Below, piece after piece: positions 9,701 through 44,150 of a stretch of DNA of 64,000 nt. A program made the translations under genes and the position numbers. Numbering within the stretch: position 1 is the first letter of the stretch; every line of letters begins with the position of its first letter. This DNA is from Bacteroidaceae bacterium (GTDB lineage: Bacteria; Bacteroidota; Bacteroidia; Bacteroidales; Bacteroidaceae): positions 47,820-111,819 of the forward strand of contig CABIVS010000001.1 of assembly GCA_902362375.1 (NCBI GenBank), read 5' to 3'. The notes under the pieces are model-generated. The model was given only the letters and a program-made list of their open reading frames with translations, was not told where the DNA came from and ran no database searches.

Positions 9701-9809
9701 CCACACCTTTTATAATAAACTTTTGCTTGTCTTCCTGCCCCCGCATAGTTTGAGGCACAAGCAACAGTATCATCAGAAACAATACGATATATTGTTGTAT
9801 ATTCTTCAT
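6705..9809 (-). CDS. SusC/RagA-family TonB-dependent mannan-oligosaccharide transporter
   Basis: A 1034-residue outer-membrane receptor. The order is a signal peptide (1-24), a carboxypeptidase-regulatory-like beta sandwich (KFIIKGVVEDALGPIVGASV), a TonB-box-like segment (QTIDEVVVTASG), the plug domain (VLKDASATAIYGQRGANGVVLITTKRG) and a 22-strand barrel. The barrel ends with aromatic residues (CYLQFSF), as needed for BAM-mediated insertion. With SusD it imports glycans, driven by TonB. It is the second gene of the leftward operon, after the NHL lipoprotein. The large size fits SusC-type receptors that import larger oligosaccharides. By position it corresponds to BT3788. Confidence 0.93.
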   Translation of the reverse strand: MKNIQQYIVLFLMILLLVPQTMRGQEDKQKFIIKGVVEDALGPIVGASVIAKNQPGVGTITDLDGNFSIKVGPYDVLQITFVGYQAVEIPVLSIKDRNHLSVKMVENNQTIDEVVVTASGVQKKKTLTGAITNVELKHLNAPGANLTNSLAGVVPGIIAMQSSGEPGENMSQFWIRGMSTFGAKSGALILVDGVERSFNEIPVEDIESFSVLKDASATAIYGQRGANGVVLITTKRGEKGKVKINVKAGFDWNSPVKVPEYASGYDWARLANEALVGRYENPLYTNEELAIIQHGLDPDLYPNVDWRDLMLKNGAPSYYANISFSGGSDNVRYFVSGRYTGENGRYRTASSENTYNTNSTYERWNYRANVDMNLTRTTVLSASVGGWLVNRNAPSSSSEDIWKSFASYTPLSAPRKWSTGQWPIVNGMTTPEYQLTQTGYRTIWENKIESSISLEQDLSFITKGLKFNGVFAFDTYNWNQITRSKSQELWSAENMRDGNGNLVLKRESNASAMNQKKEVQGDKRYYLQASLDYSRMFANKHRVGAFAMVYQQETSDVNFAEDDLMGSIPHRTLAYSGRFTYAYKDRYLTEFNWGYTGSENFEKGKQFGFFPAVSLGWVISEESFVKKAMPWLSQFKVRASYGEVGNDELEGRRFPYITLVNTDDGGSYTFGEFGSNRVQAYRIKTLGTPYLTWEVAKKYDVGVDFSFFNDRITGTVDWFLDRRDDIFMKRNQMPLTTGLADQTPMANVGKMKSYGWDGNIAYTQQIGKVNLQFRANFTYQTTDILDKDEAANELWYKMEKGFQLNQTKGLIALGLFEDQNDIDRSPDQSSLANKTILPGDIKYKDVNGDGIINDDDIVPLGYRQTPGLQYGFGLSANWKNWGINLLFQGTGKCDFFLGGSGPHAFHDGKRGNILQVMVEGNRWIPKEISGTEATENPNADWPRLTYTNNNNNNRKSTFWLRERKYLRLRNLEITYDFPQMWTRKFFVNNMRIGFIGQNLLTWAPFKWWDPEVPSEDGSNYPINRTYSCYLQFSF

Positions 9810-9830
9810 GAAAAATTCGTTTTATAATTA

Positions 9831-11186
9831 TTACTCTACCGTCACACGACGGATTACGTGATTCTCACGGTCAGCCACATATACTGAATTGTCAGGATAA
9901 ACCGTGACACATTCCGGTGAGTTAAACTTAGCCAATTCAGGCAATCCGTCACCAAAACCATTCTGCCCGGGCATCCCCGCATAAAGAGAAGTAGTACCCG
10001 CAGGCGTAATCTTGCGGACAATATGCCCACTCTTTTCCGGAATAAACATATTGCCATCTTCATCAAATGCCGGCTGACGAGGTTCATTCAGACGGGCTGT
10101 AGCACCTGTACCATTTACATAACCGCTCTCGTCCCATGCTCCGACAAAAAGCACCGGTATTCCAAATGTATGTGTGCCGGCATCGTAAGGCACCTTATAA
10201 ATACAATGACGGTTACAAGCCACTACATATAATATAGTACCTTCTCTGTTAAATACCATACGAGTCTCCACTCCTGTCGCATTATTGATCTGAAAGAGTT
10301 TCTCGTAATCTTCGTAACCAGGTCCGACATAACGCCAAATGTATCCATCACCCTTATTACTAAAGAACACCTCTCCAGTCTGGGGATGAACAGCGATTCC
10401 GGTTGTTCCGATTTTCGTTCCACGGCAAAGTCCGCGTACATCTACAAAACCGCCTTCACGAGTCACATACAGGACATTAAAGTCCGTCTTTGTGTTACTT
10501 TCGTCTGTATAACAATAGTTAGAGATATACAGTGTATCCTGATTGGGGCTAAATGCTAAGGCGGTAGGTGACTGGAACGGTCCCGTAGAACATTGTACTA
10601 ATGTTTCCACTTCACCACCGCGCGCCCGACGCAAAGCACCATTCTGTTCAGTACCACGTCCTTCATCAACAAAGAACACGGTCCCATCCTTATCCGTCAA
10701 CAAGAACCATGGACGTTGCAGTTTACAAGCAGCATAGCTACCGTCTTCACGTCCTTTCATTCCTTGCTGTCCCACCATTGTTGTCACATTACGCTTAAAC
10801 TGATAACAGAACTTTGATTCGGAAGAATATTCCTCCACATTATCATCTTTACCTATATATAAACGAACATAACCTGTGTCCGCACGCGCTGGAACGATGG
10901 CATAAATCATTTCATCGTCCATTCTCACAACGGTCGCTTCTTTGTTATTGACCGTAACTCTCACATACTCCGGATCAGAACCAAAATTCTTACCTCTAAT
11001 GATTAACTGTGTGCCGATACCTCCACTATCAGGAGAGAAACTTTCGAAGACTGAACGCTTACTCAAATCGGGAGGCGTAACTTGATATTGATTTATGGGA
11101 GCTAAATTATTATCACACCCCCAAAAAACAGATATCCCAATAAATAAGGACAATCCTAATTTGATGTTTAATAAATTGAATTTCAT
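9831..11186 (-). CDS. TIG/IPT plus NHL-repeat surface lipoprotein
   Basis: A 451-residue lipoprotein (lipobox SVFWGC, Cys24). Residues about 45-130 form an IPT/TIG Ig-like domain (FSPDSGGIGTQLIIRGKNFG). Residues about 145-451 contain NHL beta-propeller repeats (PWFLLTDKDGTVFFVDEG, PRQPAFDEDGNMFIPEKSGHIVRKITPAG, PECVTVYPDNSVYVADRENHVIRRV). Proteins of this type precede susC in several Bacteroides PULs and are taken to be surface glycan-binding or scaffold proteins; no enzymatic role is established. It is the first gene of the leftward mannan operon, with a leader of about 175 nt below the predicted promoter. It matches the BT3787 position. Confidence 0.8.
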   Translation of the reverse strand: MKFNLLNIKLGLSLFIGISVFWGCDNNLAPINQYQVTPPDLSKRSVFESFSPDSGGIGTQLIIRGKNFGSDPEYVRVTVNNKEATVVRMDDEMIYAIVPARADTGYVRLYIGKDDNVEEYSSESKFCYQFKRNVTTMVGQQGMKGREDGSYAACKLQRPWFLLTDKDGTVFFVDEGRGTEQNGALRRARGGEVETLVQCSTGPFQSPTALAFSPNQDTLYISNYCYTDESNTKTDFNVLYVTREGGFVDVRGLCRGTKIGTTGIAVHPQTGEVFFSNKGDGYIWRYVGPGYEDYEKLFQINNATGVETRMVFNREGTILYVVACNRHCIYKVPYDAGTHTFGIPVLFVGAWDESGYVNGTGATARLNEPRQPAFDEDGNMFIPEKSGHIVRKITPAGTTSLYAGMPGQNGFGDGLPELAKFNSPECVTVYPDNSVYVADRENHVIRRVTVE

Positions 11187-27076: not shown

Positions 27077-27101
27077 TTTGAGCAAAAGTAATTCTTTTCT
27101 T
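27077..27101. other. attL: left copy of 25-bp direct repeat
   Basis: The repeat begins TTTGAGCAAAAG and ends TTCTTTTCTT and is identical at 43860-43884; flanking bases differ on both sides. It lies 29 bp upstream of the tetR start codon and contains, on the minus strand, the -7 box TACTTTTG. Confidence 0.88.
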
Positions 27102-27227: not shown

Positions 27228-29027
27228 ATGGTTAGACAGATTTTTATTAATCAAGTACGATGCAATTTCAATTTAAGACAACCTAAAATTGATAAACCGA
27301 CCAACATTTATCTAGTAGTACGTTTCAATAATAAACAGGTAAAATTATCAACTGGAGTGAAAGTTTATCCCGAACACTGGAATGTGAGAAAACAACAAGC
27401 GTATGTTAGTGTACGCTTGTCTGAATTAGATAACAACAACAATACAATAATCAATGATAGATTAGCTGAATTAAAAGAATTATTTTTTGAATTTAAGCAT
27501 TACCTTTGTGAACACCCTACTGAAATTAATAGTGGCATAACCATACTAAAAACATACATGTACAAGAATACAATGACTACAGAGATAAAAGAGAAAGCAG
27601 CAACGACTATAATGAAAGAGATTATAGAAGCTAAAAAAGTAGAACCTAGTACTAAAGAGCAACAGAAATTAAATGTTGGCAAATTTGAGAGGTATCTAAA
27701 AGAGAATAACATCTCTGATACATGGGAATCTATGAATCTAAAAACATTTGATAGTTACCAGAAATACTTAACAAACAGTGGTAGAGGTAGTATTACAATA
27801 AAGAACATCATACAAAACACTCTGTTTCCTTTACTAAAGAAAGCTAATAAAAGAATGGACATTCCTTTTACGTGGTATGAAAGTAACTTAGACAGCCTTG
27901 AATTAGTAAAAGATGAGTCCAACAAAGAGCTAGCCAACAATAAAAAAGTGGCATTAACAGAAGAACAACTAAAACAATTATATGATTATCAAATAACGAC
28001 AGGTACAGCCATACAAATAAAAAGACGAATTGAAATAAGAGACTTATTCGTATTACAATGTTTAGTTGGGCAACGCATTGGAGATATGCAGAAATTCTTC
28101 AATGGAGATAATGAAAGGGATGAAGAAGCAGGAACCATTTCTATTATACAACAAAAAACAAAAGCCAGAGCTATAATTCCATTAACACCATTAGCAGAAG
28201 AAATTTTAGCCAAATATCAAAACATTAAACTCAAATACTATAAAACAGATAACACCAATTTAAATGCAGAACTAAGAATTATTGCAAAAGAAGCAGGTTT
28301 AAATACTCTTGTTACTTATGAAGATAAAGATGGGAAACAATCAAAACCTTTATTTGAATTAATCCACACACATACAGCCAGACATACATTCATTACTATA
28401 ATGTGCAGAAAAGACATTCCAAAGGAAACCATAATAATAGCAACGGGACATGAAGACACAAAAATGATAGATAAAGTTTATGCTCATTTAAACAGCAAAG
28501 ATAAAGCTAAAAAAGTATCTAGTGCTTTTAAAGATAAATTGAGCGATGGTATTTTTAAAATGGACAAGAAAGATACTTCTATTAATAAAACAACACTAAT
28601 TACCAGTACAATGGTTTGCGACATTACATTTGATACACTGTTAGATACTCAATTTTTCGCATCTAAAATCAATAAGGCTGCTGAATTACAATCACAGGTA
28701 GGTCACTTGAAGGATGGAAAACTGTGTAGCTATGACAATGAAATCACGTCCCTTGTAAGTGAAATTGAGAATTTTGCTCAATCCTCTACCTCTGATTTTG
28801 ACGTAGCGAAACAATACGTAGAACAATTATCTGTTTGGAAGCTGTCAGATTTGAATGATATTTTTAAAGAATTGATAATCAAGTGTGTCAAGATTGGTAT
28901 TAGTAAGGAGGTAATCATGAGATTTATTGATAAGGCTTTAGAAATGGAACTGTTAGACACAGATAGGTTTACCAACATTAAAGAAGTCGCTATTGCCCTA
29001 TTGGATGCAAAGAATAAGAATTGGTAA
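27228..29027 (+). CDS. int: Tyrosine recombinase, element integrase
   Basis: A 599-residue integrase. Residues about 1-100 form the arm-binding domain typical of Bacteroidota integrases (KPTNIYLVVRFNNKQVKLSTGVKVYPEHWN). Residues about 125-225 form the SAM-like core-binding domain, and the catalytic domain follows with Arg283 (GQRIGD), His382-x-x-Arg385 (HTARHTF), His408 (GHED) and nucleophile Tyr418 (DKVYAHL). All five residues are intact. An unusual C-terminal extension of about 180 residues follows the tyrosine; usual integrases end soon after it. The gene starts at the left end directly after the arm repeats. It probably catalyses integration and excision at the 25-bp repeats. Confidence 0.92.
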   Translation: MVRQIFINQVRCNFNLRQPKIDKPTNIYLVVRFNNKQVKLSTGVKVYPEHWNVRKQQAYVSVRLSELDNNNNTIINDRLAELKELFFEFKHYLCEHPTEINSGITILKTYMYKNTMTTEIKEKAATTIMKEIIEAKKVEPSTKEQQKLNVGKFERYLKENNISDTWESMNLKTFDSYQKYLTNSGRGSITIKNIIQNTLFPLLKKANKRMDIPFTWYESNLDSLELVKDESNKELANNKKVALTEEQLKQLYDYQITTGTAIQIKRRIEIRDLFVLQCLVGQRIGDMQKFFNGDNERDEEAGTISIIQQKTKARAIIPLTPLAEEILAKYQNIKLKYYKTDNTNLNAELRIIAKEAGLNTLVTYEDKDGKQSKPLFELIHTHTARHTFITIMCRKDIPKETIIIATGHEDTKMIDKVYAHLNSKDKAKKVSSAFKDKLSDGIFKMDKKDTSINKTTLITSTMVCDITFDTLLDTQFFASKINKAAELQSQVGHLKDGKLCSYDNEITSLVSEIENFAQSSTSDFDVAKQYVEQLSVWKLSDLNDIFKELIIKCVKIGISKEVIMRFIDKALEMELLDTDRFTNIKEVAIALLDAKNKNW

Positions 29028-29073: not shown

Positions 29074-29149
29074 TTTGGACTTTAGAGCAGCCTCAACTCT
29101 GAATATCCATAAACTCACCGTACCATTAGGCTACCTCCCTCGAAAGCCG

Positions 29150-33458: not shown

Positions 33459-34481
33459 ATGGAAACATTACAGATTATGCCAACTTTGGCACAAAGAAGC
33501 AGTAGTAATTTTGGTGAGTTTGCAGAGGATGCAACTATAATAGTTGAAGAACAACCTACCAAGCAGAAGCGACCGTTATTCATTGAAGCTAACACGATTG
33601 AAGCTAGTTTGGAACATCTAAGGAATGATTGTATTATACCTGTATTCGCCAAAGATAACGAAGCTACATTATCTCATGTGGCTTTTATCGAAGCGGTACA
33701 GGATGCAACTAGTACATTCTTTAATGGTGAACAAATTGAATTGCCAGATATTCGTGTTTCTCATGTGATTAAAGGGAGGATTCCAGAAGCAATACATAAG
33801 CCAGCCAATCAGTTATTGGAAAGTGATAAAACTATCTATTACGAAAGATGTGCTTTTGTGATTGAGATTCCTACTATCTATGAGACTGTAAACGGTAATA
33901 GGCTAACATTGACTATTGGCGGTGTTCGTGCTTATAATCATACTAATCTCTACAGTAAAAAAGGTGCTGAAAGATTTAAAGTGTTTATAGGTTTCATTTG
34001 TAAGGTTTGCACAAATCTATGTGTGTCTACGGACGGTTTTATTAGTTGTTTGGAAGTTACTAATACAAGGGATTTATACCAAGCAGTATTAGAAATGTTC
34101 CACAACTATAATCCAGCCAAACACATACATTTGATGCAGACTTTAGGCAATACCAGTATGACAGAACACCAGTTTTGCCAGTTATTAGGAAGAATGAGAC
34201 TTTACCAATTACTACCGCAAGGCTACCAAAAGGACATACCTAAAATGTTGCTTACTGATACACAGATTAACAATGTGGCTAAAGCATATATTAATGATGA
34301 GAACTTTGGTAGTTTGGGCAGTGATTTATCTATGTGGAAATTCTACAACTTACTTACTGGAAGCAATAAGTCAAGCTACATTGATTCTTTCTTAGATAGA
34401 GCCTATAATGCTACAGAACTTGCAACAGGTATTGCAGCCGCTTTACATGGTGACAGCAAATATCAATGGTTTCTTAATTAG
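33459..34481 (+). CDS. DUF3871 family protein
   Basis: A 340-residue protein of a family seen on Bacteroidota mobile elements. Recognisable blocks are FIEANTIEASLEHLRNDCIIPVFAKDNE, DIRVSHVIKGRIPEAIHKPANQLLESDKTIYYERCAFVIEIPTIYE, LTLTIGGVRAYNHTNLYSKK, KVFIGFICKVCTNLCVSTDG, and the ending MWKFYNLLTGSNKSSYIDSFLDRAYNATELATGIAAALHGDSKYQWFLN. Length equals the family norm. Function is not known; conservation on integrative elements and plasmids suggests a role in element maintenance or DNA processing. Small membrane-protein genes lie on both sides (33297 and 34530). Confidence 0.88.
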   Translation: METLQIMPTLAQRSSSNFGEFAEDATIIVEEQPTKQKRPLFIEANTIEASLEHLRNDCIIPVFAKDNEATLSHVAFIEAVQDATSTFFNGEQIELPDIRVSHVIKGRIPEAIHKPANQLLESDKTIYYERCAFVIEIPTIYETVNGNRLTLTIGGVRAYNHTNLYSKKGAERFKVFIGFICKVCTNLCVSTDGFISCLEVTNTRDLYQAVLEMFHNYNPAKHIHLMQTLGNTSMTEHQFCQLLGRMRLYQLLPQGYQKDIPKMLLTDTQINNVAKAYINDENFGSLGSDLSMWKFYNLLTGSNKSSYIDSFLDRAYNATELATGIAAALHGDSKYQWFLN

Positions 34482-34652: not shown

Positions 34653-34660
34653 CATGAAGG

Positions 34661-34695
34661 GGACATCTAATTTTTTTGTTAGGTGTCCTTTTTTT
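34661..34695 (+). terminator. Terminator of the DUF3871 unit
   Basis: GGACATCTAA (34661-34670) pairs with TTAGGTGTCC (34679-34688), followed by seven Ts. Its central 24 bp are repeated exactly at 35016-35039. Confidence 0.82.
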
Positions 34696-34726: not shown

Positions 34727-35002
34727 ATGGAGAAAAAGAAAATTGATAATGCAGTAAATCACATTTCCACATTACAGGAAAGTTTGTGTTATTGTGAAAA
34801 CAATCTGCAATACATTAAGCGATTACAAGCATTAAAGTATTGGCTACATAAGTTTGATTCATTCTTAGATAGGACTAGCAGACAGCAAGGAGAGTATGCA
34901 GCAATTTACGAAAATTATTTTTGTTCTGGTTGTGGATTCTCATTCTACGAAAGAGTTTGTAATTCTATCATAGTCTATGAGTATGGAGACAGACCATTTT
35001 AA
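34727..35002 (+). CDS. Hypothetical helical protein
   Basis: A 91-residue cytoplasmic protein of unknown function, with a helical coiled-coil-like N-terminal half (DNAVNHISTLQESLCYCENNLQYIKRLQALKYWLHKFDSFLDR). The C-terminal part has CSGCGFSFYERVC; the three cysteines CxxC...C could bind a metal but a full zinc site is not complete. It sits between two copies of the same hairpin sequence, so it may be a separately transcribed cassette. Confidence 0.55.
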   Translation: MEKKKIDNAVNHISTLQESLCYCENNLQYIKRLQALKYWLHKFDSFLDRTSRQQGEYAAIYENYFCSGCGFSFYERVCNSIIVYEYGDRPF

Positions 35003-35012
35003 TAAGGTATAA

Positions 35013-35042
35013 GGAACATCTAATTTTTTTGTTAGGTGTTCC
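35013..35042 (+). terminator. Repeat copy of the terminator hairpin without T-tail
   Basis: GGAACATCTAA (35013-35023) pairs with TTAGGTGTTCC (35032-35042). The loop and inner stem (35016-35039) are identical to 34663-34686, but no T-run follows, so termination may be weak and read through into the recombinase gene. Confidence 0.6.
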
Positions 35043-35156
35043 TAAAGAATGTTCACTTTGTCTATTAGTGAATGTTTCCTTAGTAATCAGCTACTTAGAA
35101 ATAACAAGGTGAAATTAATCTTCACTTTTATGTGTTTAACTACCAAACTGAATATT

Positions 35157-35744
35157 ATGAGTTTGAAATACAGTAATACTACGGCTGATTTCCTGCAATG
35201 GGACGAAGCCATGAATTTAGTGAGAAAGTTATCCAGAGATGGAAATTATAAGATGTCGCTTTTTATTGCGATAGGTTGTTTTACAGGTTTTAGAATTTCT
35301 GATATTTTAGCTCTAAGATGGAAACAGATTCTAAATGTGGACGAGTTTACCATCATAGAGCATAAAACTAAAAAGAAACGGACTATCAGAGTAAATCCAC
35401 AACTAAAGGCACATATTAGAGAATGTTATGAGCGTATAAATCCAGTTGGAATTAATGCTCCAATACTGATAAGCCAGAAGAAAACAGTCTATAGTATCCA
35501 GAGGATAAATGACATTCTCAAAGAGATAAAAGCGAAGTATAAACTAAAGGTAAACAACTTTAGCTGCCATTCCCTTAGAAAGACTTTTGGCAGACAGGTT
35601 TATAACATGAATGGTGAAAACGCTGAACTAGCTTTGGTTAAGTTGATGGAAATATTTAATCATAGTTCCATTACGGTTACTAAAAGGTACATAGGACTAA
35701 GAAAAGAAGAAATACTACAAACTTATGACTGCCTTAGCTTTTAA
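35157..35744 (+). CDS. Catalytic-domain-only tyrosine recombinase
   Basis: A 195-residue recombinase counted from ATG at 35157; longer in-frame starts (from 35049) add an unrelated hydrophobic segment and are less likely. All active-site residues are present: Arg46 (GFRISD), His138-x-x-Arg141 (CHSLRKTFG), His169 (FNHSS) and Tyr178 (KRYIGL). There is no SAM-like core-binding domain, which is unusual for integrases, but such minimal recombinases occur on Bacteroidota elements. It may resolve dimers, invert a small segment, or act at the long inverted repeat just downstream (35849-35998). Confidence 0.85.
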   Translation: MSLKYSNTTADFLQWDEAMNLVRKLSRDGNYKMSLFIAIGCFTGFRISDILALRWKQILNVDEFTIIEHKTKKKRTIRVNPQLKAHIRECYERINPVGINAPILISQKKTVYSIQRINDILKEIKAKYKLKVNNFSCHSLRKTFGRQVYNMNGENAELALVKLMEIFNHSSITVTKRYIGLRKEEILQTYDCLSF

Positions 35745-35773
35745 CTTACTATTTTAATTGCAAATACAAATGT

Positions 35774-35830
35774 CTTTCGTTATCTTTGTGCCAATCCTAG
35801 TAATAGGAGGACATATTTATTTAACGAAAG
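35774..35830 (+). promoter_or_regulatory. Promoter flanked by 9-bp inverted repeats
   Basis: CTTTCGTTA (35774-35782) and TAACGAAAG (35822-35830) are perfect inverted repeats. A perfect -7 box TATCTTTG (35781-35788) starts in the left copy. Transcription would run into the long inverted repeat at 35849. The arms look like possible recombinase or repressor half-sites. Confidence 0.5.
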
Positions 35831-35848
35831 GCGTTTTGCATTATCCTT

Positions 35849-35998
35849 GTCTCTAAATTTCGCCAAAATTTGACAACTACAGGGATATGCACAACGCCCA
35901 CACTAATGTTTACATCTATCTTATGATAGCCTGTATACTGTTTGGTGTGGGCAACTGTTGTGTATTTGTAGTTGGGGTGTTTGGCGATACCTAGAGAC
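35849..35998. repeat. Long imperfect inverted repeat
   Basis: About 55 bp (35849-35903) pair with 35945-35998 around a 41-bp centre. Matching blocks are GTCTCTA, TCGCCAAA, CAACTACA, ATA, CACAAC and GCCCACAC. No convincing gene overlaps it. It could be a structured RNA made from the promoter at 35781, a folded single-strand DNA site such as an origin, or a recombination site for the neighbouring recombinase. Confidence 0.7.
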
Positions 35999-36187
35999 AG
36001 ATATGCTAATAGTTCCCGCACCTTTTCTATTTTATAACTGTATCTATTGGGAGCAGGATACAACAAATAGTTGCACTATGGAACAGGCTTATTTATTACC
36101 AATTCCTACCCTACATTTACCTCAATCAGTATGTAGAGTGTTAAATCCCTTACAAATTCAAGGATTAGGCATTTTTATCTAAAATTC

Positions 36188-36221
36188 TTTGGGTAAATAA
36201 AAGCAATAATTATTATATTTG
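36188..36221 (+). promoter_or_regulatory. Predicted promoter of the divisome-like operon
   Basis: TTTG (36188-36191) and the perfect -7 box TATATTTG (36214-36221) are 22 bp apart. No further -7 box as good occurs before the first operon gene at 36489. The leader is about 260 nt and contains two small hairpins (TACTATC-A-GATAGTA near 36374, and CAACTTTTT/AAAAAGTTG at 36412-36449). Confidence 0.6.
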
Positions 36222-36488
36222 TATACATCTAAAAGTACCATATTGACTATCAAGTCTCTATTAATTCTCTGATACTTTTAATACTATGATAACCTACTTT
36301 CTTGGGAGAATTGGAAAGTGCATTTTACATAAAAAGAAACAGACATACTACTTATCTTATCTACAGACAATTCTACTATCAGATAGTAGGATGTGATTTA
36401 GCAAACAACATCAACTTTTTGTATAATTATTCAGGTTATTAAAAAGTTGAATACTGATTAACATACCGAACGATTAAAATTTAAACTT

Positions 36489-36641
36489 ATGTATCCATTG
36501 ATGATTTTTCTAAGTAGAGGTAAAATGTCTGATTATGCAGATTCTTCCTCTGGCTATGGTCTTGAAATTTTCACATTGATAGTCATAGTTGGCTTTATAT
36601 TGTATGCTATTGTAGCACGTTGGAGAGAAAAGAATAAATAA
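36489..36641 (+). CDS. 50-residue single-pass membrane protein
   Basis: A short frame with an N-terminal Ser/Asp-rich part (GKMSDYADSSSGYG), one clear membrane helix (LEIFTLIVIVGFILYAIVA) and a basic end (RWREKNK), so the C-terminus should face the cytoplasm. It lies 11 bp before the next gene and is the first gene of the divisome-like operon. Function unknown. Confidence 0.5.
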   Translation: MYPLMIFLSRGKMSDYADSSSGYGLEIFTLIVIVGFILYAIVARWREKNK

Positions 36642-36652
36642 AATTACACGAA

Positions 36653-37000
36653 ATGAGATTGAAAACAATACTACTGATATGCTTACTTTCTTTATTAAGT
36701 ATTAATATACTTGCTGATAACTACAAATTCGATTATGCAGTGATTAATAATGAGAAAGTAACTACTGTAAATGCACCTAACATTACAGCTACCATAATTA
36801 GTACTACAAAAGCGACTGTTACTTATCAAAAAGAAACTATTACTTTAACTTCTAAAGATGGCATAAAGTATGAGGGATATGGTGAGAATGGAGTGATGGT
36901 AATTGCCAATAAAGTAAATAATGTATTAAGCAGAATAACGATAGGAGCTACTGTTAAGACACAAGTCGTTATGCTTATTTATAAACGGATTAATAATTAA
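36653..37000 (+). CDS. Small secreted protein of the divisome-like operon
   Basis: A 115-residue protein with a clear signal peptide (MRLKTILLICLLSLLSINILA-D). The mature part is about 93 residues, beta-rich and Thr/Val/Ile-rich (TVNAPNITATIISTTKATVTYQKETITLTSKDGIKYEG), without cysteine or known motif, so it probably acts in the periplasm. It is 13 bp before the next gene and clearly part of the operon. Function unknown. Confidence 0.65.
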   Translation: MRLKTILLICLLSLLSINILADNYKFDYAVINNEKVTTVNAPNITATIISTTKATVTYQKETITLTSKDGIKYEGYGENGVMVIANKVNNVLSRITIGATVKTQVVMLIYKRINN

Positions 37001-37013
37001 AATTTTAAATTGA

Positions 37014-37394
37014 ATGAAAGTTTTTATAATAATTTTCGCAGCAATTCTTATTGCATTAGTCGTTTATTTTGGACTAGGTTGGGTTGCTAAAGATATTACT
37101 TTTTCTATGATGGATATTAATGATAATACGACACTTGAAGAAATAGCTAATATAGATTTAATTGTCTATGCCAGTCTTGCAGGAGTATATATTATATTGT
37201 GCTTACTCTTTATAATGGAAAAGATAGATAATGATAAACTTCTTTCAATTTTACTATTTCCATTCGCAGCATACTGCATTAGTAAGTATTTAATTCCCCC
37301 TTCAATGGGTAGTGCTGTGCTATTTAATTTGTTAAATATTAGCGGAATGACTATTTCAACAGTACTTGCTATGGTTGTATTAACAGAAGAATAA
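37014..37394 (+). CDS. Four-helix inner-membrane protein
   Basis: A 126-residue integral membrane protein of unknown function. Predicted helices are at about 2-25, 48-68, 77-95 and 102-123, with short loops and an acidic periplasmic or cytoplasmic loop (DINDNTTLEEIANID) after the first. The size and acidic loop are unlike any cell-division protein I know. It lies 13 bp after the secreted protein gene and 12 bp before the zinc-ribbon gene, in the operon with the FtsI- and FtsZ-like genes. Confidence 0.65.
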   Translation: MKVFIIIFAAILIALVVYFGLGWVAKDITFSMMDINDNTTLEEIANIDLIVYASLAGVYIILCLLFIMEKIDNDKLLSILLFPFAAYCISKYLIPPSMGSAVLFNLLNISGMTISTVLAMVVLTEE

Positions 37395-37406
37395 AACATA
37401 TATGGT

Positions 37407-37619
37407 ATGGAAGATATGTTTTACGCTATTATAGGGCTTGCCTTTATTATCACTTTGGTAGTTCTAGCACAAAAAAGAAGAAACAAGTACTTCACTAAGA
37501 AGTGTCCTAAATGTGGCTATCCAACTGTACACCCTAAGCCTACAGGACTTAAATACAGAGGTGGATGTCCTTGCTATAATTATAAATGTCCTAAATGTAG
37601 ACATCAATTTACTAATTAA
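37407..37619 (+). CDS. Membrane-anchored zinc-ribbon protein
   Basis: A 70-residue protein: one membrane helix (about 4-21), a basic stretch (QKRRNKYFTKK), then a zinc ribbon with C33-P-K-C36, C54-P-C56 and C61-P-K-C64. The basic flank places the ribbon in the cytoplasm, where it could contact a protein or nucleic acid at the membrane. It belongs to the operon (12 bp from both neighbours). No close family is recognised. Confidence 0.65.
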   Translation: MEDMFYAIIGLAFIITLVVLAQKRRNKYFTKKCPKCGYPTVHPKPTGLKYRGGCPCYNYKCPKCRHQFTN

Positions 37620-37630
37620 ATATTTTGATT

Positions 37631-37822
37631 ATGATAACATCTTGGATTATTCATACAGTATCTTATTTGTTAATTTTCTGGCTTGGGGTAAAATACAAGA
37701 AGATAATACAATTAAATGGTCTAATTGGAGGACATGTAGGTATTATTTTTGTCATGTTAATAGTTATTTTCATAATGGGATTCGCTAATTGTTGTGGACT
37801 ATGCAAAGATTTATTTGGCTAA
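37631..37822 (+). CDS. Small two-helix membrane protein
   Basis: A 63-residue protein starting at ATG 37631. Helices are at about 3-20 and 34-52, and the end is FANCCGLCKDLFG, a Cys-rich short tail that may be lipidated or bind metal. Its last 22 bp overlap the start of the FtsI-like gene, so the two are probably translationally coupled. Function unknown. Confidence 0.6.
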   Translation: MITSWIIHTVSYLLIFWLGVKYKKIIQLNGLIGGHVGIIFVMLIVIFIMGFANCCGLCKDLFG

Positions 37823-38895
37823 ATATAAAATACATAATTTATGTAATTACCGTAATTGGGGGATTAGCTTCTTGTCAAAACAAGCAGCAAGTAACAGAAC
37901 AAGTTTTCACTATAGACAGTACATTACAGGTTAATGCTACTTCTATTCTGGAAGAAAAATTATCAGAGATAAATGCTCAATCTGGACAGGTAATTGTTAT
38001 AGAGGTTCAGACAGGGCAAATTAAGGCTCTGGTTGGACTTACCAAGAAAGACAGTGCAGACTACCAACCTTGTGAGAACTTTGCTACACGACAGCCTACA
38101 GGTCTGATGCACCCAATATCTCTATTGGCAGCTTTAGAAACTGGTAAAGTGAAGTTCAGTGATAAAGTTGATACTGGAAATGGTATCTACCAAGTTCATG
38201 GCAGAGAACTGAAAGATCACAATTGGCATAGAGGTGGATATGGTGAGCTTACAGTACAAGAAGGATTAGCTGTTAGTTCCAATATTGCTACTTATAAATC
38301 AATGGAGAAAGTATTTGGGAACGATGTACAAACATACTTTACTATGTTGGATAAAATGAGTTATGGAAAACCAGACAGCATTATTGGAATAACTAATCTG
38401 CAATCTGCGTATTTTATTACTCCTAAAGATAACAATTGGACTAAGACAGCCTTTGCATGGTTCTGTATTGGATACAATCAACTCATTTCACCAATTCAAA
38501 CTCTTACCTTCTATAATGCTATCGCCAATAATGGTAGGATGGTGCAGCCTCAACTATACAAAGATAGTGTAGTAGTTATTAATCCACAAATAGCAAATAA
38601 GGCTAGTATTGATAGTTTAAAGAAAGCTCTAGTACTTAATATTACTGACGGACTAGGACAACCTGCCAAGTCTGATAAGGTACTAGTTGCAGGTATGCAG
38701 GGAACTAGTTCATTATCTACTAATGAGGATAGTACTAAGGATATGTATGCAGTTGAGTTCTGTGGCTATTTCCCTACTGACAATCCCAAGTATAGTATCA
38801 TTGTGTCTATTAATAAGACTGGATTACCTGCTAGTGGTGGATTGATAGCAGGTGATGTATTTAGAAAGATAGTTGATTACATCCAAACCGAATAA
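37801..38895 (+). CDS. FtsI/PBP3-like lipoprotein with degenerate transpeptidase active site
   Basis: A 364-residue protein starting at ATG 37801. The lipobox GGLASC (Cys about 25) makes it a lipoprotein instead of the membrane-anchored form of true FtsI. Residues about 45-360 are clearly the transpeptidase domain of Bacteroidota FtsI (DTGNGIYQVHGRELKDHNWHRGGYGELTVQE, ISPIQTLTFYNAIANNGRMVQPQ, FCGYFPTDNPKYSIIV). The SSN motif (159-161) remains, but the SxxK nucleophile block PGSTFK reads PTGLMH (Gly101, His104), and KTGT reads MQGT (299-302). Acyl-enzyme formation is therefore not expected. There is no PBP dimer domain. It is probably a binding-only decoy or scaffold. Confidence 0.85.
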   Translation: MQRFIWLNIKYIIYVITVIGGLASCQNKQQVTEQVFTIDSTLQVNATSILEEKLSEINAQSGQVIVIEVQTGQIKALVGLTKKDSADYQPCENFATRQPTGLMHPISLLAALETGKVKFSDKVDTGNGIYQVHGRELKDHNWHRGGYGELTVQEGLAVSSNIATYKSMEKVFGNDVQTYFTMLDKMSYGKPDSIIGITNLQSAYFITPKDNNWTKTAFAWFCIGYNQLISPIQTLTFYNAIANNGRMVQPQLYKDSVVVINPQIANKASIDSLKKALVLNITDGLGQPAKSDKVLVAGMQGTSSLSTNEDSTKDMYAVEFCGYFPTDNPKYSIIVSINKTGLPASGGLIAGDVFRKIVDYIQTE

Positions 38896-38907
38896 ATTAG
38901 ATTCAAG

Positions 38908-39258
38908 ATGATAGCAGAAAAAATAGCGAATGTAACTAATAGCTTTGACAAGTTATGTAATAATTGTATTGATGTACTGGAGGGATTATCCAAAGATATT
39001 GGAATGAGTTACGGTGAATTGAATGTATGGTTATTTGTAATTATACAGCCAGCTTTGATACTGATATTCTTTACTACAACTGTAATTCTTACCATAAGAC
39101 TTTACAGAAAGAATAAAGACTTTAAACGTGGAAACTTAATCACTGCTTCAATATCTACAATAGTTATTATTGCATTTGTTATTGCTATGCTATTAGCTGC
39201 CGCTTATGTATTTCTAATTTTGGCAATAGGAGGTAAAGGAATTGATGGCACTGTTTGA
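38908..39258 (+). CDS. Two-helix membrane protein between FtsI-like and FtsZ genes
   Basis: A 116-residue protein: soluble N-terminal 40 residues (NVTNSFDKLCNNCIDVLEGLSKDIGMSYGE), helices at about 45-66 and 81-106, and a short basic loop (RLYRKNKDFKRGN) between them. Its place directly between the FtsI-like lipoprotein (12 bp) and FtsZ (56 bp) makes it a candidate membrane anchor for the FtsZ homologue, but no ZipA-, FtsA- or SepF-like motif is present. Confidence 0.65.
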   Translation: MIAEKIANVTNSFDKLCNNCIDVLEGLSKDIGMSYGELNVWLFVIIQPALILIFFTTTVILTIRLYRKNKDFKRGNLITASISTIVIIAFVIAMLLAAAYVFLILAIGGKGIDGTV

Positions 39259-39314
39259 TTTTAGGCAGATGATGTATTTAGAAAAATAGTTGATAATGAA
39301 ATAATGTAATAATT

Positions 39315-40547
39315 ATGAATGACATAATTGAATTTGACTTTCCTAAGAATCCAGTATCTAACATAATAAAGGTAGTTGGTGTAGGAGGCGGTGGCGGTAA
39401 CGCTGTAAAGAATATGTACAAGCAGGGGATTCATGATGTGTCCTTTGTGTTATGTAATACTGATAGCCAAGCTTTGTGTCGTTCTGACATTCCCGTAAAG
39501 ATTCAGTTAGGTAAAACTGGATTAGGTGCAGGTAACGATCCTATGAAAGGAAAGGCAGCAGCAGAGGAAAGTATTGACAGCATTAAAGAACTATTCAATG
39601 ATACTACCAAAATGGTGTTTGTAACTGCTGGGATGGGTGGTGGAACGGGAACTGGTGCTGCACCCGTAATAGCTAATGTTGCTAAAGAAATGGGAATACT
39701 AACGGTAGGAATAGTTACTATACCTTTCCTTTTTGAGAAGAAACCTAAAATAATGCAGGCTTTAAAAGGGGTTGAAGAAATGAAAAGGAATGTGGATGCC
39801 TTGTTAGTTATTAACAATGAACGTTTACGAGAAATATACACTGATGGAATTACAACCGCTAAAGACGCTTTTAGTAAGGCAGATGACATTCTAACTACTG
39901 CAACTAAAAGTATTGCAGAGATAATAACCATTGAAGGTACAATAAATCGAGACTTTCGTGATGTTGAAACCATAATGAAGAATGGCGGTAGTGCTATAAT
40001 GGCTACAGGAAAAGCCAAAGGAAAGCATAGAATACAAAATGCGATACTGAATGCTTTAAATTCTCCATTACTTAATGACAATGACATAGAGCAAGCACAA
40101 AAACTGTTGTACATTTTGTATGCAAGTAAGAATAATCCAATCTTAATAGACGAGCTATCAGAATTAGATTCATTTATGGAAGAACTGGACACTGACATAG
40201 AAGTAATCTGGGGATTGTATGATGATGATAGTTTAGGAGAAGATGTAAAGATTACCCTGATTGCTACTGGCTTTAACAACAGAAAAGACACTATTACTGA
40301 TACAAGCGAAGAAACAAGACTTAAAGGTCAGATAGAGAAATACTATAAATCCAGTTCCAAACCAGTGAGCAAACAAACCCAATTTAAAGTTGAAGAGCCA
40401 ATAACCACTATTGTAGAAGAAGTAGTAAAAGAAGAAACAGAAACAATATCATTTGAAGAAACAGAAGAAACTATCGTCCCCTCTAAAAAGGAGAAACTGA
40501 TAAATCGTCTTGGCAATATGATAAATAAGTTAATGGAAGAAGAATAG
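39315..40547 (+). CDS. ftsZ: FtsZ homologue encoded on the mobile element
   Basis: A 410-residue tubulin-like GTPase of FtsZ rather than TubZ or PhuZ type. GTP-binding T1 loop VGVGGGGGNAV (21-31) and T4 signature GGGTGTG (108-114) are intact. The T7 synergy loop N211-R-D213-F-R-D216 retains the residues that hydrolyse GTP in the next subunit, so polymerisation and GTPase activity are expected. After the globular part (to about 335) there is an acidic linker (356-389). The C-terminus KKEKLINRLGNMINKLMEEE is a potential amphipathic helix; the usual FtsA/ZipA-binding peptide (IPxFL-like) is absent. It therefore probably has other partners than host FtsZ. The host should have its own ftsZ elsewhere. 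Confidence 0.93.
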   Translation: MNDIIEFDFPKNPVSNIIKVVGVGGGGGNAVKNMYKQGIHDVSFVLCNTDSQALCRSDIPVKIQLGKTGLGAGNDPMKGKAAAEESIDSIKELFNDTTKMVFVTAGMGGGTGTGAAPVIANVAKEMGILTVGIVTIPFLFEKKPKIMQALKGVEEMKRNVDALLVINNERLREIYTDGITTAKDAFSKADDILTTATKSIAEIITIEGTINRDFRDVETIMKNGGSAIMATGKAKGKHRIQNAILNALNSPLLNDNDIEQAQKLLYILYASKNNPILIDELSELDSFMEELDTDIEVIWGLYDDDSLGEDVKITLIATGFNNRKDTITDTSEETRLKGQIEKYYKSSSKPVSKQTQFKVEEPITTIVEEVVKEETETISFEETEETIVPSKKEKLINRLGNMINKLMEEE

Positions 40548-40641
40548 TTATTGTACGATAGCAAAATAATTCTTACCTTTATTATTTCAAGGATTAATGG
40601 ATGTACTGATAAACGATAACAGTTGAGCAAATAAAAAATGT

Positions 40642-41208
40642 ATGTGGAATAAAGTAAGAAATAGGATAGTTTCTAGCAATGTGGATATTGACGGTGTTCT
40701 TTTTGACAAGACAAGAACAACTTTAATCAAATGCTCTAAAGATAAATCTGGTAACTATGTTGTTCCAGATGGAACTTTATTCATTGATAAAGGTGCGTTT
40801 AGAGATTGCTATTTTTTATCTTCCATTGAATTACCTACTACAATTCAATCCATTCAAGCCTATGCTTTCTGTAGATGCTCTGGACTAAAGCGTATCGCTA
40901 TTCCTAATAAAGTACATTACATACATAGAGGATTATTGCAAGGTTGTACGGGTTTAAAAGAAATTCATGTTCAATCCGCAATACCTCCTATTTGTGTCAA
41001 TGGTAGTAAGTTTAGTTTCTTTAATGATGATGATATGATGATTATAGATTCACCAACAAATAGAAGCTATCAAAAGAAAGGTGCTAAGCTGATTTGTTTT
41101 GATGGAGTTGGTAAAGAACATTGTATTGTTTATGTACTTAAAGAAACGGTAGAACTATACAAAAATACAATAGGCTGGAATGAATTTAAGAACATTGTAG
41201 AAGAATAA
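40642..41208 (+). CDS. BspA-type leucine-rich repeat protein
   Basis: A 188-residue protein without a signal peptide. It has LRR_5-type repeats (VVPDGTLFIDKGAFRDCYFLSSIELPTTIQSIQAYAFCRCSGLKRIAIPNKVHYIHRGLLQGCTGLKEIHV). BspA repeats are usually on secreted adhesins; a cytoplasmic form next to ftsZ is unusual and suggests a protein-protein contact role. The C-terminal 70 residues (from about 118) are a different, unknown domain. It starts 94 bp after the ftsZ stop and is 12 bp before the next gene, in the same operon. Confidence 0.75.
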   Translation: MWNKVRNRIVSSNVDIDGVLFDKTRTTLIKCSKDKSGNYVVPDGTLFIDKGAFRDCYFLSSIELPTTIQSIQAYAFCRCSGLKRIAIPNKVHYIHRGLLQGCTGLKEIHVQSAIPPICVNGSKFSFFNDDDMMIIDSPTNRSYQKKGAKLICFDGVGKEHCIVYVLKETVELYKNTIGWNEFKNIVEE

Positions 41209-41220
41209 TAAAACTAATCT

Positions 41221-41499
41221 ATGAACAATAATCAATCAGACAAGAAAGAACCGGAGTTTTTTACTCCCAATGCTCCAGATAAATATGCAAATTGGAATAC
41301 CAAAGGTATAATGATAGGTTGTGGAGTTATGGTAGCTCTATACATTATTGGAGTAGTTGTAGGACTATGTTTAGGTTATGGTTGGGCTAGTTTGTTTCTT
41401 CCTTTTATTCCATTTGCTATCATGGGATTTCTTGGCTGTATCTGGGAATTATTTAAGAAGTTCTACAACTTGGGGTATGATAGGGAACGTAGGAAATGA
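41221..41499 (+). CDS. Two-helix membrane protein, last gene of the operon
   Basis: A 92-residue protein: hydrophilic N-terminal 30 residues (NNNQSDKKEPEFFTPNAPDKYANWN), helices at about 30-52 and 55-76 joined by a glycine-rich turn (GLCLGYGWA), and a basic end (KKFYNLGYDRERRK). Function unknown. It is followed by a clear terminator, so it closes the divisome-like operon. Confidence 0.62.
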   Translation: MNNNQSDKKEPEFFTPNAPDKYANWNTKGIMIGCGVMVALYIIGVVVGLCLGYGWASLFLPFIPFAIMGFLGCIWELFKKFYNLGYDRERRK

Positions 41500-41520
41500 T
41501 AAAAGAGATAATTCAAAGGC

Positions 41521-41558
41521 AAGGCAGTAGGTGAGATTTCATTTACTGCCTTATTTTT
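41521..41558 (+). terminator. Terminator of the divisome-like operon
   Basis: AAGGCAGTA (41521-41529) pairs with TACTGCCTT (41544-41552), followed by a T-rich tail. Confidence 0.8.
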
Positions 41559-41574
41559 TATCACTAAATCTTTC

Positions 41575-41582
41575 TATCTTTA
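41575..41582 (+). promoter_or_regulatory. Predicted -7 box of the next gene
   Basis: TATCTTTA differs from TAnnTTTG at the last base. It lies 24 bp before the gene at 41607 and directly follows the operon terminator. Confidence 0.45.
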
Positions 41583-41606
41583 AGGCATAATTTAATTATT
41601 AGAGAT

Positions 41607-42575
41607 ATGGAAGACATAAAGCCAATAGATAAGTTCATTTTAGACAGGTATGTAAAAGAAGAAGATGATTTGCTTGAATATGTAGAAATATTAGGATGCA
41701 AATTTCACCCTGACTATGATTTCATAAAGGTTAAAGAAGAAATAGAGAATAAAGCAGGAATAAATGAAGAAGAAGAAACAGTAGAAGAAGCAGTAGAAAA
41801 AGATGAAGGAGAAATAAAATTCGTCTTTATGGGTACAACTGTAACACAAGAATTTAAAAAAAGATATAATGCAAAAGTGCTTAATGCACACTATACATTT
41901 GAGAAATACCTACAAGATGAAGATGTACAAAATACTTTAGAAGCATTAAATATAGATAAGGAAAAATTCTGGTATCTATTGTTATTTGTTTCAGATTACA
42001 TTCATGGAAGCTGTTTAGAAGGTGCTAAGGTAAAAGAAGCCCCCAAATTATTAGTAGAGAAACTCATGCAACAGATTGGTAAGAATATTGATAAGGATGG
42101 CTCTAAAGTTTCTTTCATAAAACCTATGACACTAACATTAAAGATACAAGAAGAACATCATTCTATCGAAATTGATGACCCCATATCACTAGCTTATATT
42201 CATTATGCCTATAATGCAGGGAAAGAGTATTTTAACATTGATAAACCAACAATATTTGATATACAAGAAATAGATAGAAAAGGTAAAGCAACAGAACCTG
42301 ACACTGTTTTAGTGGCAATGTTCTATAATTTATTGAATAGTTTCCTTAAGTTATTGCCCAAAACAAATAAAAGTAAGATTGCAAAGGCATACACAACAGT
42401 CTTTTTAAATAAGACATTGTTAATTTCAAGACTAGTCTATTTAACTAATCTCTCTAAGGATGAACGTTATACTGGAATTGATAAGAAAAAAGAGAAACTA
42501 TGTCCCAACTTCATAAAAGACCAGATAAAATCTTACAAAGATTATGAAATTCTTAGAGCTAACAAATTTTATTAA
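41607..42575 (+). CDS. Hypothetical acidic-linker protein
   Basis: A 322-residue cytoplasmic protein that I do not recognise. The N-terminal part (1-50) is followed by a very acidic linker (EEIENKAGINEEEETVEEAVEKDEGE). The C-terminal 240 residues form an alpha-rich domain with a KMTLTLKIQEEHHSIEIDDPISL strand pair. No catalytic or DNA-binding motif stands out. It has its own promoter and terminator, so it forms a single-gene unit beside the divisome-like operon. Base composition matches the element. Confidence 0.62.
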   Translation: MEDIKPIDKFILDRYVKEEDDLLEYVEILGCKFHPDYDFIKVKEEIENKAGINEEEETVEEAVEKDEGEIKFVFMGTTVTQEFKKRYNAKVLNAHYTFEKYLQDEDVQNTLEALNIDKEKFWYLLLFVSDYIHGSCLEGAKVKEAPKLLVEKLMQQIGKNIDKDGSKVSFIKPMTLTLKIQEEHHSIEIDDPISLAYIHYAYNAGKEYFNIDKPTIFDIQEIDRKGKATEPDTVLVAMFYNLLNSFLKLLPKTNKSKIAKAYTTVFLNKTLLISRLVYLTNLSKDERYTGIDKKKEKLCPNFIKDQIKSYKDYEILRANKFY

Positions 42576-42585
42576 TTGATTATTT

Positions 42586-42620
42586 AAGGGGTAAATTATA
42601 GTGTTATTTTTACCCCTCTT
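42586..42620 (+). terminator. Terminator of the acidic-linker gene
   Basis: AAGGGGTAAA (42586-42595) pairs with TTTTACCCCT (42608-42617), 11 bp after the stop codon. Confidence 0.65.
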
Positions 42621-42720
42621 ACCACCTCTCAAAATATTTCCTTTACGCATATTTCCATTGTAGTTTTGCCACCAAGAACGAAGGTAGAAATGTTTCTACT
42701 GGGTAGTCTAATTTTAAACC

Positions 42721-43662
42721 ATGAATAAAGAAAGCGAAATAGCTCTTCAAGTTTTAACGCTAACAGTGCTAGCAAGTAAAGGAATTAAGATAGCTAGACT
42801 ATCAGGTAATCGTAATTTCAATGCCAAGGCTATTAAAGCCAAAATGCAATCAATGAAAGAGAATGGAATGTTAGTTCCTGCTATCATTGTGGATGCAAAG
42901 GAAGTGATAAAAGCTGGATTGGAAATTGTAGATTTTGAAACTGGAAAAACCATTAGCGAAGCTAATGCAGACAAGTACGTTGTGTTGGTAGATGCAAACC
43001 ACCGTTACCAAGCTCACTTGAATCTTCTTAAAGCAAATGAAGATTTGAAAGAAGAAGAACGGTATAAAGGTGAGTTCTATCTTATTCATGCTTTGAATGA
43101 AACAATTACAGTTGCTAAGATGTTGGCAGAAATCAATATCTGTACAAATCCATGGAAGGGTGGAGATTTCCCTAAAGGAGCAAAGATGGTATGTAAAGAG
43201 GAATTACCTTTACTTGACTTCATTGAAGAACTTACAAGTAAGGGGTATCCTTTACCAACCGCTTCTAAATGGGCAACATTCAAATCTGATATTACTAAAG
43301 ACGTGATGGCAGATGCAATGGCAGGTAAGATAAACGAAAAGTTGCGGAAAACTAACAGTCTGGAAAGAGGTAAGAAGTTGCTAGAAGCAGCAATGAAAAG
43401 CCTATCAGAAGGTGTTCTTAAAAGCCGAACAGTCGTTGATTGGATTATTTTCAAGTATGATGAAGCTACTGACGAAAACAAAGTTACTGTAATTGATGAG
43501 TTGGTTGCATTCTTTACAAGTCTGGATAGACCTAAAGCGGAACTGATAGAGAAAGCTAAAGGGGTACGTGGCGGTGAAACAAAGGAAGGAATCATCAATG
43601 GTTTGCTTAACAGTTTCTACGAGCAGTTTACACAATCCAAAAGTACTTCCACTGATGAGTAA
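42721..43662 (+). CDS. ParB/Srx-fold protein
   Basis: A 313-residue cytoplasmic protein. Residues about 24-125 resemble the ParB N-terminal (ParB/sulfiredoxin) fold: KIARLSGNRNFNAKAIKAKMQSMKENGMLVPAIIVDAK, then VLVDANHRYQAHLNLL with the family's D-x-NHRY motif at 91-96. The C-terminal helical part (130-313) lacks a recognisable ParB helix-turn-helix. No ParA gene lies near, so a regulatory, CTP-binding or nuclease-like role is as possible as partitioning. It is the last gene of the element before the right end. Confidence 0.65.
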   Translation: MNKESEIALQVLTLTVLASKGIKIARLSGNRNFNAKAIKAKMQSMKENGMLVPAIIVDAKEVIKAGLEIVDFETGKTISEANADKYVVLVDANHRYQAHLNLLKANEDLKEEERYKGEFYLIHALNETITVAKMLAEINICTNPWKGGDFPKGAKMVCKEELPLLDFIEELTSKGYPLPTASKWATFKSDITKDVMADAMAGKINEKLRKTNSLERGKKLLEAAMKSLSEGVLKSRTVVDWIIFKYDEATDENKVTVIDELVAFFTSLDRPKAELIEKAKGVRGGETKEGIINGLLNSFYEQFTQSKSTSTDE

Positions 43663-43669
43663 AACAAGA

Positions 43670-43704
43670 AGCCAGTTATCGAAATTGATAGCTGGCTTTT
43701 TTTT
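43670..43704 (+). terminator. Terminator of the ParB-like gene
   Basis: AGCCAGTTATC (43670-43680) pairs with GATAGCTGGCT (43687-43697), one G-T pair, then eight Ts. Confidence 0.82.
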
Positions 43705-43781
43705 ATCTGAATATAAATTGTCACATCTAAGTACAGACTAAATTTCTAATCTCCAGATTATGCCTTATACAGATTTAATCC

Positions 43782-43789
43782 TATCTTTG
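43782..43789 (+). promoter_or_regulatory. Outward-facing -7 box at the right end of the element
   Basis: A perfect -7 box TATCTTTG with no gene between it and attR. In the integrated state it points to the chromosome. In the excised circle it would point across the joined ends into the integrase gene. No good -33 box is visible. Confidence 0.45.
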
Positions 43790-43807
43790 TCTCGTTCAAA
43801 TAAGGCT

Positions 43808-43830
43808 ATTAAGAACAGTATTTAAGAACA
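43808..43830 (+). repeat. Two 13-bp-spaced repeats, probable arm sites (right end)
   Basis: ATTAAGAACA (43808) and TTTAAGAACA (43821) are 13 bp apart, in the same orientation as the four left-end copies at 27174-27222. Confidence 0.72.
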
Positions 43831-43859
43831 AACATCATAACTCACTGATACAAAGCAGC

Positions 43860-43884
43860 TTTGAGCAAAAGTAATTCTTTTCTT
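43860..43884. other. attR: right copy of 25-bp direct repeat
   Basis: Identical to 27077-27101. It lies 185 bp upstream of the initiator tRNA gene, so that gene is not the attachment site. Confidence 0.88.
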
Positions 43885-44023: not shown

Positions 44024-44054
44024 TTTGTTTGTTTCAAAAAAAGCCGTACCTTTG
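44024..44054 (+). promoter_or_regulatory. Promoter of the initiator tRNA gene
   Basis: TTTG (44024-44027), 19 bp, then the perfect -7 box TACCTTTG (44047-44054), 14 bp before the tRNA. Confidence 0.75.
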
Positions 44055-44068
44055 CACCCGTTAAACAT

Positions 44069-44141
<73 letters not shown>

Positions 44142-44150
44142 CTAAAGAAA

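Follow-up and report, generated by a model that had tools for sequence, protein, structure and literature searches.

A lipoprotein family on Bacteroidales integrative elements related to the FtsI transpeptidase domain and predicted to be non-catalytic

Introduction

The essential division enzyme FtsI, or penicillin-binding protein (PBP) 3, contacts FtsW through its transmembrane (TM) helix. In the divisome of Pseudomonas aeruginosa, according to the published description, the FtsI pedestal meets helix 1 of FtsL, and the transpeptidase (TP) domain meets FtsL, FtsB and FtsQ (PMC7614612). Here we describe a protein, hereafter the mimic, that shares this TP domain with the FtsI/PBP3 of Bacteroidales and is encoded on an integrative element within a 64,000-nucleotide (nt) stretch of a Bacteroidaceae bacterium contig (the window, meaning the whole stretch analyzed). 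It differs from host FtsI in lacking the SxxK and KTG motifs, the TM helix, the pedestal and the PASTA part, in carrying a lipobox, and in being mobile and patchily distributed.

Three other described systems invite comparison. PBP-lipo of mycobacteria is a lipoprotein that keeps its catalytic serine and N-terminal domain and is encoded by an ordinary chromosomal gene; it is akin to the mimic as a PBP and a lipoprotein, and differs from it in being catalytic and chromosomal. A published account has a mycobacterial PBP acting in septal wall synthesis (PMC9170245). The rAID arrays of Bacteroidales are characterized by a tyrosine recombinase homologous to that of B. fragilis (BF9343_RS08045 in strain NCTC 9343), at least two co-oriented genes of <41% G+C, conserved intergenic motifs and genes with an orphan immunity role (PMC12247911). 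Lastly, phage Kil and KilR are cases of mobile DNA acting on host division, as the mimic would be if a division role is correct; both are reported to inhibit FtsZ assembly, KilR also elongation, and neither is an FtsI look-alike. A search of open-license papers yielded none recognized as treating the mimic family; among those listed, DUF3871, a family met below on the element, appeared in one.

Results

The mimic gene (37801..38895, + strand) encodes 364 amino acids (aa) from an ATG start; an alternative TTG at 37789 would add four residues (368 aa), and motif positions are given in the 364-aa form. Pfam PF00905 matches at 105.1 bits (cut-off 22.1) over residues 68-362 of the 368-aa form (64-358 of the 364-aa form), and the nearest solved structures are those of PBP3/FtsI, the best being 6hzi (PBP3, E 7e-18), bearing out the FtsI-type transpeptidase assignment of a first-pass annotation. 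PBP-family models of NCBIfam matched partially and far below cut-off. As that annotation had also read them, the SxxK position, preceded by a three-residue deletion in the alignment, is GLMH (residues 101-104, 38101..38112), the KTGT position is MQGT (residues 299-302, 38695..38706), and SxN is retained as SSN (residues 159-161, 38275..38283), all on the + strand. The membrane anchor and dimer domain had been said to be replaced by a lipobox; a lipobox is indeed present (LASC, residues 22-25, 37864..37875, + strand) and the Pfam scan of the mimic found no PF03717 pedestal, and the statement needs widening in that the C-terminal PASTA part (PF03793) is gone from the mimic too, most listed Prevotella FtsI carrying PF03717, PF03793 and PF00905 together. 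Set against class B PBPs of the FtsI/PBP3 type, the mimic thus has the transpeptidase fold and SxN, lacks both Ser and Lys of SxxK (GLMH) as well as KTG (MQG), and bears a lipobox in place of TM anchor and pedestal. As far as motifs can tell, its chemistry would be excluded.

Motif loss extends across the family. Among the best 120 of 6735 homologues found (window protein included), GLMH is present in 120/120 and MQGT in 116/120, and the cluster of the window protein occurs on 57 contigs. Clustering of open reading frames (ORFs) from genome and viral loci gave 36 family members; removal of two members repeating L007 and L008 and of the truncated L015 left 33, including the window, for the tree and the counts that follow. 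The incomplete L017 and the internally deleted L074 are kept in this set; G506:C207, whose frame is interrupted by a stop codon, stands outside it. The SxxK lysine is absent from 32/33 members, and a complete SxxK occurs once, in L068 (SLCK), the only member with all three motifs (SLCK, SSN, KTGT). By alignment column, Ser occupies position 101 in four members (L005, L008, L070, L072), Lys position 104 in one and Lys position 299 in eight; with L068, shifted by one column, Ser at the SxxK place reaches 5/33. His stands at the place of the SxxK lysine in 18/33, SxN is SSN in 21/33, and the KTGT position shows 18 different readings with its glycine kept in 33/33. The TM-anchored L072 reads STVE, SSN and KTGT. 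In the 25 host FtsI of the tree, SxxK, SSN and KTG are present in 25/25.

A lone mutated copy in the window is ruled out by this clade-wide loss. Sister elements that keep SxxK and KTG would have pointed to such a copy, and the SxxK lysine was found in 0/23 members lying beside the element core genes DUF3871 or REC (described below); L068 has neither gene within its 20-kb stretch. The claim of a catalytically dead protein is thus upheld, by motif, as a predicted loss of acyl transfer across the clade.

Several relatives are built differently. L068 (9734-10834) is a lipoprotein with SLCK, SSN and KTGT intact, possibly a short lipid-anchored active transpeptidase. L142 (~8161-9915, on a viral-classed contig) is a lipoprotein in which a long additional N-terminal region, resembling Sel1/TPR repeats by eye and with no Pfam match, is fused to a transpeptidase-like domain lacking SxxK and KTG. 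L108 (10044-11498) and L109 (10078-11541) carry ~140-150 extra C-terminal residues after the mimic domain; the L108 extension, the one scanned, has no Pfam match.

In a tree computed without the motif columns, the 33 mimics are split from the 25 host FtsI by a single branch with support 100/100. Because of this split and an identity of 35-42% to host FtsI (four hosts, L018-L021), we conclude that the FtsI TP domain is ancestral to the family. L072 is nearest to the hosts in the tree and is flagged by the program as a long branch. Of 99 host-invariant TP columns, 53 are kept in ≥75% of mimics. The lost columns include 3/4 active-site positions versus 28/95 others (Fisher p 0.09, suggestive only). 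The tree requires two changes for the SxxK lysine and seven for the KTG lysine; its deep forks do not decide whether the chemistry may have been lost along more than one route or in a single event followed by one regain.

By the Nei-Gojobori method, the ratio of nonsynonymous to synonymous substitution rates (dN/dS) among mimics has a median of 0.227 (range 0.107-0.433; 163/528 pairs with 0.05<dS<1.5), and a further pair, whose dS of 0.025 lies below that interval, gives 0.48. The host TP domain has a median of 0.019 (range 0.002-0.08; 20/300 pairs), so that constraint on the mimic is about tenfold weaker than on the host enzyme; since pairs are not independent, the comparison is a description and not a test.

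A lipobox pattern was matched in 25/34 members (34 including L015 and the partial L017), with a few more recognizable by eye; the match in L108 is probably one turn early. L110-L112 have a signal-peptide-like start with no lipobox, L072 shows, by eye, a TM helix, and in L008 a Tyr replaces the lipobox Cys. The proposed surface-export signal of B. fragilis is the acidic run SDDDD (PMC5080379). In the window mimic the lipobox is followed by QNKQQ, with the acidic signal absent, and none of the 25 lipobox members has more than one acidic residue between +2 and +6. Because of this absence the mimic is predicted to be exported as a lipoprotein facing the periplasm.

The bare FtsI TP domain with a lipobox is carried on integrative elements in Bacteroidales. 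The window element lies between exact 25-nt direct repeats, likely attachment sites (27077..27101 and 43860..43884), spans ~16.8 kb and has a G+C of 0.333 against 0.433/0.416 outside; it neighbors a TetR-family regulator and tRNA-Met (44069-44142, just beyond the right repeat), and the flanks hold Bacteroides-type carbohydrate-use genes (GH76, GH92, SusD, TonB receptor). An 18-nt exact repeat is found at 29143, inside the element, and at 44040, outside it. The element encodes, all on the + strand, a 599-aa integrase (27228..29027), the core DUF3871 protein (33459..34481; PF12987, 522 bits) and a core tyrosine recombinase of 195 aa, REC (35157..35744; PF00589, 66 bits; ORF start further upstream at 35049). 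DUF3871 and/or REC lie beside the mimic in 23/33 members and neither in 10, some of these stretches ending at contig ends. DUF3871 is present in 53/158 Bacteroides-genus genomes, and REC at ≥73% identity in 43 places (not counting a 121-residue piece that contains a stop), at least 11 of which have a mimic ≤3 kb downstream. At least 16 mimic-type places were found in at least 14/158 Bacteroides-genus genomes (frames <450 aa), and at least 13 in at least 11/399 Bacteroidaceae genomes (frames <500 aa), one with an internal stop.

Viral carriage was considered and rejected: two scans of viral contigs, one made with the mimic and the other with its alignment, returned one family contig (both times) and one distant fusion, and scans with REC and DUF3871 returned relatives at 36-39% and 56% only. 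Since these hits are so sparse, phage carriage is not the rule.

REC is separated from the cargo by non-coding sequence (35753-36543) that is conserved, in the corresponding position, in several related elements. In the window it contains a strong hairpin at 35850..36000 (z -7.6). When the best-folding 160 nt behind REC were taken from each of 32 loci, the window among them, z versus shuffles ran from -2.8 to -9.2, values inflated because the best sliding window was picked and the shuffles were simple. Candidate roles for the region are those of a regulatory RNA, an origin or a recombination site in folded form. An Rfam scan at E≤0.5 gave the tRNA and one sub-threshold match, and no known RNA in the hairpin region; an inverted-repeat scan for an invertible promoter behind REC gave short or imperfect pairs only. 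The sub-threshold match, SNORA15 at 43600-43718 (33.7 bits, E 0.007), is probably due to chance in a bacterium and overlaps 43661-43848, a stretch with conserved counterparts in L122 and L124. Two AT-rich intergenic copies of a 27-nt repeat, 96% identical to each other, precede a 91-aa gene at 34727 (34660-34686) and REC (35013-35039), and are possibly a shared terminator or regulatory site.

The cargo around the mimic comprises nine + strand genes (36653-41499) with gaps of 13, 12, 5, -22, 12, 56, 94 and 12 nt, a spacing so tight that it suggests one operon. Upstream are four small genes of 115, 126, 70 and 65 aa (36653..37822), the last overlapping the mimic from its ATG by 22 nt; none has a PADLOC match, and the first two have no Pfam or NCBIfam match. 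Downstream follows a 116-aa predicted membrane protein (38908..39258) with sub-cut-off matches only, a homologue of which lies directly behind the mimic in L003, and then a homologue of FtsZ (39315..40547; TIGR00065, 325 bits, equivalog cut-off 295.2). A BspA-type LRR_5 protein of 188 aa and a 92-aa protein (40642..41499) close the tight operon.

The FtsZ homologue has the GTPase signature GGGTGTG and the N-x-DF-x-D T7 loop intact; the host-type C-terminal peptide (PTYxR-type in 3/3 host FtsZ) is absent, and the protein ends in KEKLINRLGNMINKLMEEE, a conserved, helix-like tail of the same type as in relatives P0121, P0128 and P0132. Ahead of it, at 39252..39309, lies a recombination scar, left over from the 3' end of a second mimic gene and reading ADDVFRKIVDNEIM and a stop. 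The ADDVFRKIVDNEIM ending is common to P0002 and P0005 (2/120), and the longest contig of P0002, at 47,300 nt, has the same size as that of FtsZ P0123. The C-termini of the 120 mimics form discrete types, their last 11 residues occurring in 21 versions, a pattern that fits recombination at the gene end. Mimic and FtsZ were thus probably once direct neighbors, recombination within the mimic gene having inserted the 116-aa gene, as if cargo were joined by recombination at the end of the mimic gene. A search with the P0128 FtsZ at E≤1e-150 matched 0/158 Bacteroides-genus genomes, a cut-off that also drops host FtsZ.

Discussion

The mimic family is a real, widespread and selected pseudoenzyme family of a known domain, and its members are very probably non-catalytic binding proteins descended from FtsI. 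We propose that the mimic would act as a binding protein. Its likeliest partners are those that ordinarily contact the FtsI TP domain, the candidates being FtsL, FtsQ, FtsB or a Bacteroidota equivalent, or the nascent septal wall, and it may thereby slow or re-time host septal wall synthesis to the benefit of the element. The operon FtsZ of the window type, which lacks the host-type C-terminal peptide, might act on division from inside the cell. We hold this division-partner step tentatively, with confidence somewhat short of even. In its most specific form, the mimic would compete with FtsI, or hold its place, on the FtsL/Q/B side. An FtsW decoy is unlikely because the pedestal and TM helix are absent and the TP part alone is kept, and active-site bait is disfavored because SxxK and the KTG lysine are among the host-invariant columns mostly lost (by the suggestive comparison above). 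Accordingly, the earlier suggestion of a decoy for FtsW or lipid II is weakened, whereas that of a decoy for divisome partners survives in part, as TP contacts with FtsL/FtsB/FtsQ could remain although those with FtsW, and of the pedestal with FtsL, would be gone.

We further consider a rather doubtful extension, that paired disarmed divisome parts, an FtsI head outside and a tail-swapped FtsZ inside, seize or pause host division. Were it true, division might be held, for example, until the element has replicated or moved, and the mimics that stand alone on sister elements would represent the system's older half. The complex with the element FtsZ that had been suggested earlier is possible only for the window type, as no FtsZ was found in the mapped stretches of the other loci.

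A number of observations weigh against these proposals. The binding partner is putative, and the P. aeruginosa contact residues, mapped by eye, are not conserved in Bacteroides FtsI. Change in the mimic reaches far beyond the pocket, 31/99 host-invariant columns being kept in <25% of mimics. The AlphaFold model leans to the active fold because its alignment includes 33 FtsI rows, and the prediction from 44 mimics alone has a predicted local distance difference test (pLDDT) score of 48.5. An outer-membrane lipoprotein might not reach FtsL. FtsZ lies beside a mimic in the window alone and in none of the other mapped locus stretches; at E≤1e-145 one such FtsZ was found in 399 Bacteroidaceae genomes (G006, 63%, odd tail), with no mimic among the matches listed for that genome. 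Finally, the cargo position fits an immunity gene equally.

That last point leads to a less likely but possible explanation, in which the mimic is an immunity-type decoy in a rAID-like array. The element shows some formal features of rAID: REC stands at the head of variable, mostly co-oriented small genes, and 11 genes (36653-43662) are all on the + strand with a G+C of 0.28-0.37, below the 41% given in the rAID description. The patchy occurrence of mimics behind REC and protein evolution about tenfold faster than in host FtsI are also in keeping with immunity, and a lipoprotein neighboring the mimic in L001 touches the BSAP-5i model of immunity proteins with a match (E 0.012) that falls far short of the cut-off. 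However, the conserved intergenic motif and immunity family of rAID were not found in the element cargo: no intergenic motif ≥18 nt is repeated among the window cargo, the mimic-end scar apart (the 27-nt pair stands before the 91-aa gene and REC, and the stretch behind REC is conserved between loci), and ten window cargo proteins have no PADLOC match, which does not exclude immunity. A REC homologue is likewise absent at E≤1e-3 from three SUKH loci whose own rAID status is putative, and homology of REC to the rAID recombinase is itself putative. We know of no toxin aimed at Bacteroidales FtsI. It is unlikely, in turn, that the mimic is a wall-binding or scaffold lipoprotein holding peptidoglycan stem peptides uncut and tethering the outer membrane or an element envelope complex; the frequent SSN and invariant KTG glycine, the missing surface-export signal and the extra parts of L108, L109 and L142 would suit such a role, but the other pocket residues are free to vary, as the 18 readings at KTGT illustrate.

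Retained enzymatic activity, through a substitute nucleophile or another reaction, is highly improbable: the complete motifs of L068 and the His in over half of the set at the SxxK lysine place speak for it, yet so few members have Ser at the SxxK place, and the replacing residues differ from branch to branch. A passenger decaying without function is hardly credible. Damaged copies do exist (the internal stop of G506:C207, L017 without its N-terminal part, the internal deletion of L074), but a dN/dS of 0.107-0.433 in 163 pairs contradicts loss of function, frames are intact in most tree members, and the window cluster spans its 57 contigs. The argument that a retained fold speaks against a decaying pseudogene, for which dN/dS had been proposed as the check, therefore stands.

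A clade that is predicted to be without PBP catalysis yet is under selection offers a natural probe of the non-catalytic roles of the FtsI head, and, should the mimic prove to act on division, it would offer an uncommon instance in which mobile DNA employs a protein resembling an essential division enzyme. Gut genomes may also be credited with drug targets that would be unable to bind penicillin; mimics P0101 and P0109 are annotated as penicillin-binding transpeptidase domain proteins by their source. The J-domain, FtsI, FtsZ and LRR pieces found among the cargo give the impression that these elements tend to carry parts resembling host proteins. The J-domain pieces are in sister cargo, as a DnaJ J-domain protein in L003 (3291-4070) and a weak J-domain-like piece in L001 (6680-6958).
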